Below are positions 2,096 to 37,378 of a DNA stretch of 37,378 bases, piece after piece. Under the pieces are notes generated by a model. It searched no databases and was not told the origin of the DNA. It saw only the letters and a program-made list of their open reading frames with translations. This DNA comes from Bacteroidota bacterium. Its GTDB lineage: Bacteria; Bacteroidota; Bacteroidia; NS11-12g; UBA955. The translations under genes and the position numbers were made by a program. The stretch spans positions 1-37,378 of the forward strand of contig JAURIG010000007.1 of assembly GCA_030832905.1 (NCBI GenBank). The letters run 5' to 3'. How positions within the stretch are numbered: position 1 is the stretch's first letter; each line of letters starts with the position of its first letter.

Positions 2096-2602
2096 ATGAA
2101 CAAGAAGCAATTTTTAACACTGTTGTGGTTGCTCATAGGCTGCATTATGTGTGTCTTATTGTTTCGTTCTGTTCGTTCCAGTATGCAAGCAAAGTCTATA
2201 GATGCCTATGACAAGGCGCTTATCATTGGCAGACTTGACACTTTAAAAGCTTTGCAAGTGGCTTATAGGTCAGTTAATGGTTATTATGCTGCGGATTTCA
2301 ATACCCTTGCAGATTTTGCTCAAAAAGCGCAATTAATGGAGGTTTCAGAAGGACAATCTTCTGTGGCTGATACCACCTTAAGACCTTTGTTTGATATACA
2401 GCATTCTGACTTTGATATTTTGCATTTAGGCTATGCAGATAGGGCTCAAAAATTCCCTTTTGTATTCGAGGCAGCATACACTGTTCAATCTGGTGATACT
2501 TTGCCTTACTTTGATATTGCTACACCAGCAGCTTTAGGGAAAGACCGTGTGTTAAACATTGGCAATAAAACATTAAATACGATTGATGGCAATTGGAGAT
2601 AA
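2096..2602 (+). CDS. Hypothetical protein with N-terminal transmembrane segment
   Basis: ORF with hydrophobic N-terminus (FLTLLWLLIGCIMCVLLF); followed by the DUF3822-like gene with small overlap. Confidence 0.75.
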   Translation: MNKKQFLTLLWLLIGCIMCVLLFRSVRSSMQAKSIDAYDKALIIGRLDTLKALQVAYRSVNGYYAADFNTLADFAQKAQLMEVSEGQSSVADTTLRPLFDIQHSDFDILHLGYADRAQKFPFVFEAAYTVQSGDTLPYFDIATPAALGKDRVLNIGNKTLNTIDGNWR

Positions 2603-36683: not shown

Positions 36684-37103
36684 ATGCAAGCTGCTTTTGT
36701 AATTGAAGAAGCCATAGAATCAGACCTGATTGATATTTTAGAATTGCTGGAGTCTATGAACTTAGATATGGATCAGGTTCATGCCCAGCAATTTTATTTA
36801 GCCACCTTGAACGATGAAATCCTTGGCTTGGGAAGAATCTTAGAACACGATGGCTGTGCTGAGTTATGTTCTTTGGGGGTTGTTGAATCCCACAGAAGAC
36901 AAGGGATTGGTTCAAAATTGGTGAATGCCTTAGCCTCTAAAACGCCAACTAAACCATTGTATGTAGTCACTGAAATTCCAGACTATTTTTTACGTTTGGG
37001 ATTTGCGCCTTCTGAAGTTTATCCTATTGAAATTGCCGATAAATTACAGCGTTGTATTGATTTGTACGATTGTCAGTCGCCAGTTGTTTTGGCGCTTGTT
37101 TAG
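36684..37103 (+). CDS. GNAT family N-acetyltransferase
   Basis: LCSLGVVESHRRQGIGSKLVNALASK (Q/RxxGxG/A acetyl-CoA site), YFLRLGFAPSE. Confidence 0.88.
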   Translation: MQAAFVIEEAIESDLIDILELLESMNLDMDQVHAQQFYLATLNDEILGLGRILEHDGCAELCSLGVVESHRRQGIGSKLVNALASKTPTKPLYVVTEIPDYFLRLGFAPSEVYPIEIADKLQRCIDLYDCQSPVVLALV

Positions 37104-37131
37104 AGACTTTATCTTTAACTTGTTTTTTCGT

Positions 37132-37325
37132 GCATGGGGTGTTCTTCACCCCATGCTGAATGTATGACGATTTAACTCAAGGGTGAAGAACACCCTTGAG
37201 ACGAAGATTATTTGTGTATGGGGTGTTCTTCACCCCATACTGAATAGATGACGATATAACTCAAGGGTGAAGAACACCCTTGAGACGAAGATTTTTTCGT
37301 GTATGGGGTGTTCTTCACCCCATAC
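37132..37325. repeat. Alternating A-B-A-B-A tandem array of palindromic hairpins, period 84-85 bp
   Basis: A1 37132-37156, B1 37176-37200, A2 37216-37240, B2 37260-37284, A3 37301-37325; each a perfect 10-bp stem with 5-nt loop; conserved spacers. Confidence 0.97.
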
Positions 37326-37378
37326 TGAATATGATAAATGAACAATAAAGAAACGTATCATAAAAATGTATTCAAAAT

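Follow-up and report, generated by a model that had tools for sequence, protein, structure and literature searches.

The window, that is, the whole stretch of DNA analysed here, is 37,378 bases long and represents the entire contig C220 of a Bacteroidota genome (G000). Downstream of a GNAT acetyltransferase gene, the window contains an array of hairpins, each with a perfect 10-bp stem and a 5-nt loop (Table 1). The original prediction placed five such hairpins at 37132-37325, and its coordinates, stems, loops and spacers were all reproduced. A scan of the window finds exactly five perfect 10-bp/5-nt hairpins, all of them in the array, compared with a chance expectation of 0.05 for the whole window. 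The only tandem array reported by Tandem Repeats Finder lies at 37126-37331, with a period of 84 and 93% matches, and folding of the array as DNA yields -61.4 kcal/mol versus -19.2 for shuffled sequences (z -13.7).

Table 1. Features of the hairpin array in the window, with the hairpins at a transposase gene of a congener (G009). CM, covariance model.
Feature	Position	Strand	Sequence	Basis or remark
GNAT acetyltransferase gene	36684..37103	+		host context, outside the element; ends 28 bp before first hairpin
First 84-bp unit (R+ spacer L-)	37124..37207	.		direct repeat D1
A1 5' tag, abutting stem	37128..37131	+	TCGT	sequence; GT invariant in 31/31 aligned members
Hairpin A1 (R type)	37132..37156	+	GCATGGGGTG-TTCTT-CACCCCATGC	sequence; CM match 37126-37162 +
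Hairpin B1 (L type)	37176..37200	-	CTCAAGGGTG-TTCTT-CACCCTTGAG (on - strand)	sequence; CM match 37170-37206 -
B1 5' tag	37201..37204	-	TCGT (+ strand: ACGA)	sequence
Second 84-bp unit	37208..37291	.		direct repeat; 92% identity to first
A2 5' tag	37212..37215	+	TTGT	sequence
Hairpin A2 (R type)	37216..37240	+	GTATGGGGTG-TTCTT-CACCCCATAC	sequence; CM match 37210-37246 +
Hairpin B2 (L type)	37260..37284	-	identical to B1	sequence; CM match 37254-37290 -
B2 5' tag	37285..37288	-	TCGT	sequence
Third unit copy, ~half length	37292-37330	.		direct repeat
A3 5' tag	37297..37300	+	TCGT	sequence
Hairpin A3 (R type)	37301..37325	+	GTATGGGGTG-TTCTT-CACCCCATAC	sequence; CM match 37295-37331 +
G009:C34 hairpins (L077)	1213-1232, 1284-1303, 2085-2104, 2155-2174			two-type inverted GTTGGTG...CACCAAC

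The hairpins had been described as two alternating types, A and B. The arms of the two do differ; however, their loops (TTCTT in A, AAGAA in B) are reverse complements of each other, and A and B are therefore opposite-facing arm variants of one asymmetric element. Here, A is called the R type, and B, as read on the minus strand, is called the L type. When both are read in the TTCTT sense, they share the core GGGTG-TTCTT-CACCC, differ in the outer five pairs, and have a GT that abuts the 5' side of the stem (within TCGT or TTGT in the array). Thus read, the five hairpins run R+ L- R+ L- R+, so that the unit consists of two inverted hairpins, spans 84-85 bp, and is tandemly duplicated. Between units 1 and 2 the stem of A has undergone a paired change, from GC...GC to GT...AC.

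A covariance model search of G000 finds 21 members at 11 loci, on 11 contigs. Thus, a single chance occurrence, which would have disposed of the original prediction, does not account for the array. By ORF calls all 21 members are intergenic, barring overlaps with ORFs of <=79 aa, which are probably not real genes. Each consists of 25 nt plus the tag, has a common core (usually GGGTG-TTCTT-CACCC), and carries GT immediately before the stem (21/21). The types that predominate elsewhere in G000 are CTCGAGGGTG and GTTTGGGGTG, and another paired change is present in two copies with GTTTGGTGTG opposite CACACC. The members form doublets with the tags outside (window A-B, C179, C185, and C234), doublets with the tags inside (window B-A), and a tandem doublet (C1), and single copies occur at other loci. 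The hairpins bear no constant relation to gene ends, as their neighboring genes may be convergent, divergent, or arranged in one direction. At C234, the product of the adjoining gene has a T9SS type A sorting domain at its end, from which the phylum Bacteroidota can be deduced. Two other kinds of repeat were noted in these regions. Degenerate tandem repeats of 6-7 bp (with period 7 for CTATACC/TAGGGTT/AACCATT) are found in the vicinity of hairpins at roughly half of the 11 loci (L139 615-644 and 760-790; L144 4089-4132; L148 5113-5200; L143 1528-1575), and a palindrome of another sequence, AAAAACCCTAG-TAACC-CTAGGGTTTTT, occurs near an L-type hairpin as two copies 173 bp apart (L147 3090-3108 and 3263-3281, G000:C231).

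The same covariance model identifies 13 copies in G009, 8 in G007, and 4 in G010. These three genomes, out of 16 congeners, carry hairpins that are built in the same way but have diverged in their loops (TTTTY or TTTCC) and in their arms, for example CTCAAGGGTG and TCATGGGGTG. One of the congener arm types is identical to the window L stem, and the loop is 5 nt in nearly all copies. A further local array, composed solely of R-type hairpins at a spacing of ~130-160 bp, is present in G009:C99. No family members are found in the 13 other congeners or in the 91 genomes searched from outside the genus but within the order (model, E 0.001); among the genomes searched, the family is thus limited to four species of one genus. 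The model search also finds no hairpin near the orthologues of the window GNAT gene on contigs of five congeners. These orthologues are only 38-45% identical, and the relatives are too distant for an empty site to be demonstrated. A pattern scan of public genome contigs and viral contigs yielded 22 matches, which were rejected as chance since each has 0-2 outer arm pairs; one of these, in Fluviicola, sits in a coding ORF. Lone matches to GGGTG(N5)CACCC in G024, G031, and G057 were likewise set aside, being without outer arms.

The distribution bears on the explanation that the array is an artefact of assembly or a CRISPR-like structure. The contig does end 47 bp past the array, and a position close to a contig end is shared by several other copies. 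However, the presence of copies on 11 contigs and, with different sequences, in three other genomes already refutes an artefact for the family. A CRISPR array can be rejected because the spacers are repeats of each other rather than unique, and because there are two repeat types. The chance that either accounts for the array is therefore negligible.

An alignment of 31 members from the four genomes reveals paired changes at 7/10 stem positions, with 100% standard pairs and zero G-U pairs. Since this alignment was restricted to perfect stems, and some omitted copies have one or two mismatches, the figure of 100% is partly a result of selection. Within the aligned members, the inner half of the stem is nearly constant (GGGTG/CACCC), and the outer half is variable and always complementary. 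The absence of G-U suggests a constraint or a correction process that operates at the level of DNA.

The stem changes are pertinent to two functions that the original prediction had offered. One is an RNA structural array, in which transcribed hairpins would act as terminators or as stabilisers of the 3' ends of mRNA. Such a role would be consistent with the strong folding, with the start of the array 28 bp past a stop codon, and with the location of several copies between convergent genes. However, the stems contain no G-U pairs, other copies lie between divergent genes (for example, C1 and C185), and no promoter or terminator signal is present at the hairpins; indeed, an intrinsic terminator was rejected because no T tract directly follows the stem of any array hairpin on its 3' side. 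In addition, no Rfam match exceeds a gathering score, and the matches below threshold are all to RNA families of eukaryotes or archaea. An RNA function is thus quite improbable. The other proposal, repeated binding sites in duplex DNA, would make the hairpins operator-like sites for a dimeric protein, such as a nucleoid protein, gyrase, or a regulator. The 25-bp dyads have constant inner half-sites as expected for this, and BIMEs/REPs are reported to bind several host proteins (PMC2817692). Yet the outer arms vary within a single genome while staying complementary, which a fixed dimer would not need; moreover, the tag is one-sided, and the copies share no common position relative to promoters. 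Operator-like sites are consequently even less probable than an RNA element.

The remaining proposal, a REP/BIME-like family, has fared well: the hairpins are dispersed and intergenic, alternate between two palindrome types, and have relatives in three sister species. By a five-point definition (as quoted in PMC12306157), REPs are extragenic, palindromic and able to form a stem-loop, ~14-40 nt long with a consensus, multicopy, and usually transcribed. The window family is extragenic, stem-loop-forming, short with a common consensus, and multicopy. In BIMEs, REPs are regularly spaced in alternating orientation, as is observed in the window array and in the inverted pairs at C179, C185, and C234. 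The assignment to REP/BIME is based on the asymmetric hairpin with its fixed 5' foot, the inverted doublets, the intergenic dispersal, and the restriction to one clade. The statement in the original prediction that no standard feature explains the array was too strong.

REPs of the GTAG superfamily are associated with RAYT (TnpA_REP) transposases, and a RAYT search of the own genome, as the original prediction had proposed, came up empty. No match to Pfam Y1_Tnp is present in G000, G007 or G010. A genus RAYT profile, built from seven divergent RAYTs of the genus, also reveals no Y1 transposase in G000 (85.5% complete) or in G007, which carries the repeats and is 98% complete. This profile added a single gene in each of G010 and G009; both are of another type and have GTAGAGACAGGG...CCCTGTCTCTAC palindromes alongside. 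In G009 and G010, which like G000 and G007 are incomplete genomes, none of the transposases found is flanked by the window hairpin family; since other hairpin families are present at the RAYT loci of congeners, these loci were set aside. ORFs adjacent to the hairpins were also rejected as hidden transposases. Their translations are unlike transposases (several, named by eye, read as superoxide dismutase, sigma factor, or DAHP synthase), and they have no mutual homology except for one superoxide dismutase pair, from G000 and G007, in which the hairpin is on opposite sides of the gene.

A transposase locus of matching design is nevertheless present in a sister species. G009 contains three REP-type genes of ~180-200 aa with the motifs MPNHxH and YIHxNP; judged by length and motif, these appear closest to subclass 2.6 (PMC6006769). 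The transposase at G009:C34 matches NCBIfam NF047646 (REP-associated tyrosine transposase) with an E value of 7e-22, just under the cut-off. On each side of this gene there is a hairpin pair, ATTGTTGGTG-TTAT-CACCAACAAT (+) and GCTGTTGGTG-TTAT-CACCAACAGC (-), whose members are separated by ~70 nt. Among these four hairpins, an outermost one is a variant with changes. As in the window, there are two outer-arm types with one core, in inverted orientation, with 10-bp stems and an inner GGTG/CACC, although the sequence differs. The locus looks like a Bacteroidota REPtron. With up to two mismatches allowed, G009 contains no further copy of its hairpin, except for one weak match at C102. At C202 of G000, a seven-pair hairpin of the G009:C34 kind, GTTGGTG-TTGT-CACCAAC, lies less than ~50 bp from an R-type hairpin, a lone co-occurrence that is suggestive only.

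Other transposase genes of the genus have hairpins of their own. Short hairpins are found near small TnpA genes that resemble subclass 1.2 (YxxNQExHH; L060, L061, L063, L067, L068, and L073), a subclass generally without such structures (PMC6006769); at L060 (G009:C133), CACCCC-GMT-GGGGT is present about three times on each side. Another TnpA type (L160, G010:C123, and L164, G009:C100) has GTAGAGACAGGGCATGCCCTGTCTCTAC palindromes beside and within the reading frame. In G015, a 234-aa RAYT is flanked by CCTTCCAGGTC...GACCTGGAAGG hairpins (L064 1101-1125 and 1944-1968, G015:C67), and a similar hairpin is located near the GNAT orthologue of that genome (L167, G015:C47).

We consider it likely that the array represents a cluster of the BIME type, formed by a small REP family that is specific to this lineage and whose non-autonomous hairpins probably spread by means of a Y1/HUH transposase supplied in trans. 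One element comprises the 5' tag ending in GT, the 10-bp stem with its constant inner and variable outer half, and the pyrimidine loop, and the basic unit is an inverted pair of related hairpins (R+, L-) with the tags outside. The transposase would recognise the tag together with the stem and the loop in one of the two strands, allowing the elements to spread as single-stranded DNA hairpins during replication. The 84-85 bp pair of the window array was later duplicated in tandem, giving ~2.5 units as assembled. The proposed single-strand Y1 mechanism is extrapolated from the known workings of IS200/IS605 and TnpA_REP (PMC6006769). The failure to find the enzyme counts against this mechanism, most of all in the case of G007, which is 98% complete. 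In view of that failure, the family may no longer be active, or it may be served by an unrecognised enzyme.

The missing enzyme also leads to a competing explanation, in which an orphan palindrome family has arisen through recombination, replication slippage, template switching at hairpins, and spread inside longer mosaic repeats, with copying of one arm from the other keeping the stems perfect. Besides the lack of a Y1 gene in G007, this would fit the tandem duplication of the 84-bp unit, the paired stem change between units 1 and 2, and the degenerate repeats that accompany the hairpins at roughly half of the 11 loci. It would also fit a hybrid at C234:5017 (L148 5017-5031), an extra to the 21 members, which fuses the L 5' arm with the R 3' arm, is without the GT foot, and looks as if two hairpins had recombined within the shared core. 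However, such processes account poorly for the dispersal to unrelated intergenic sites, the invariant, one-sided GT tag, and the largely unrelated 3' flanks, and we regard this origin as unlikely. Equally doubtful, more generally, is that a two-type hairpin family has spread in a Bacteroidota genus without any Y1/HUH transposase, whether through another kind of enzyme or through host replication/repair alone. If this were true, the family would be an example independent of the CGTC REPs, for which likewise no transposase is known.

REP families are best described in Proteobacteria, and to our knowledge those beside the TnpA_REP genes of Bacteroidetes are poorly catalogued. The latter have been termed atypical (PMC6006769). 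The window family combines a clear anatomy, carriers and non-carriers within one genus, and the REP-transposase locus of matching design in a sister species. Consequently, it can be used to test which foot is recognised by a TnpA_REP from Bacteroidota, and by what means a REP family persists when it has no dedicated transposase. Its interest resides chiefly in its orphan status together with that locus. No description of the family was found in the literature reached by our searches.

Among known systems, the REPs/BIMEs of the GTAG superfamily, which are found with RAYT (TnpA_REP) in E. coli and others, resemble the window family in being short intergenic palindromes with an unpaired, conserved tag at the 5' foot, in having two alternating types, in occurring as clusters and singles, and in their lineage specificity. 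In contrast to GTAG/GTRG REPs, however, the tag of the window family ends with GT at the stem and has no AG, the 10-bp stem is uninterrupted, the copy number is low, and no flanking RAYT was found. The CGTC-tagged REPs, which occur in Bacteroidetes among others (Di Nocera 2013, PMC3733652), have a loop of 4-5 nt and no dedicated transposase; the window family shares with them the 5-nt loop, the inverted pairs with tags outside, and the lack of such an enzyme. Unlike these REPs, it has a GTC foot only in L-type copies and in two R-type copies of G009, so that it cannot be defined by a CGTC/TGTC tag. In addition, CGTC REPs have an 8-9 bp stem, two initial A-T pairs, and a CCA tail, whereas the window family has 10 bp, mixed first pairs (in none of the aligned copies are the first two stem pairs both A-T), and no CCA, and it forms a clustered array. 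In Bacteroidetes, TnpA_REP subclass 2.6 is associated with atypical REP structures that lack GTRG (PMC6006769). Here the phylum is the same, the hairpins are also without GTRG, and the G009:C34 transposase, with its similar inverted two-type layout, fits by length and HUH motif; yet no such gene was found beside the window hairpin family, and the hairpins that flank G009:C34 differ in sequence. Finally, REPINs are inverted REP doublets that form long hairpins. The R+ L- pair of the window likewise has perfectly complementary 15-nt cores plus TTCGT/ACGAA tags, but it is part of a tandem array rather than a single doublet, and folding predictions favour the individual hairpins over the long one. 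The window family is thus a member of neither the GTAG nor the CGTC superfamily, and it can be described as ordinary in kind and unusual in detail.
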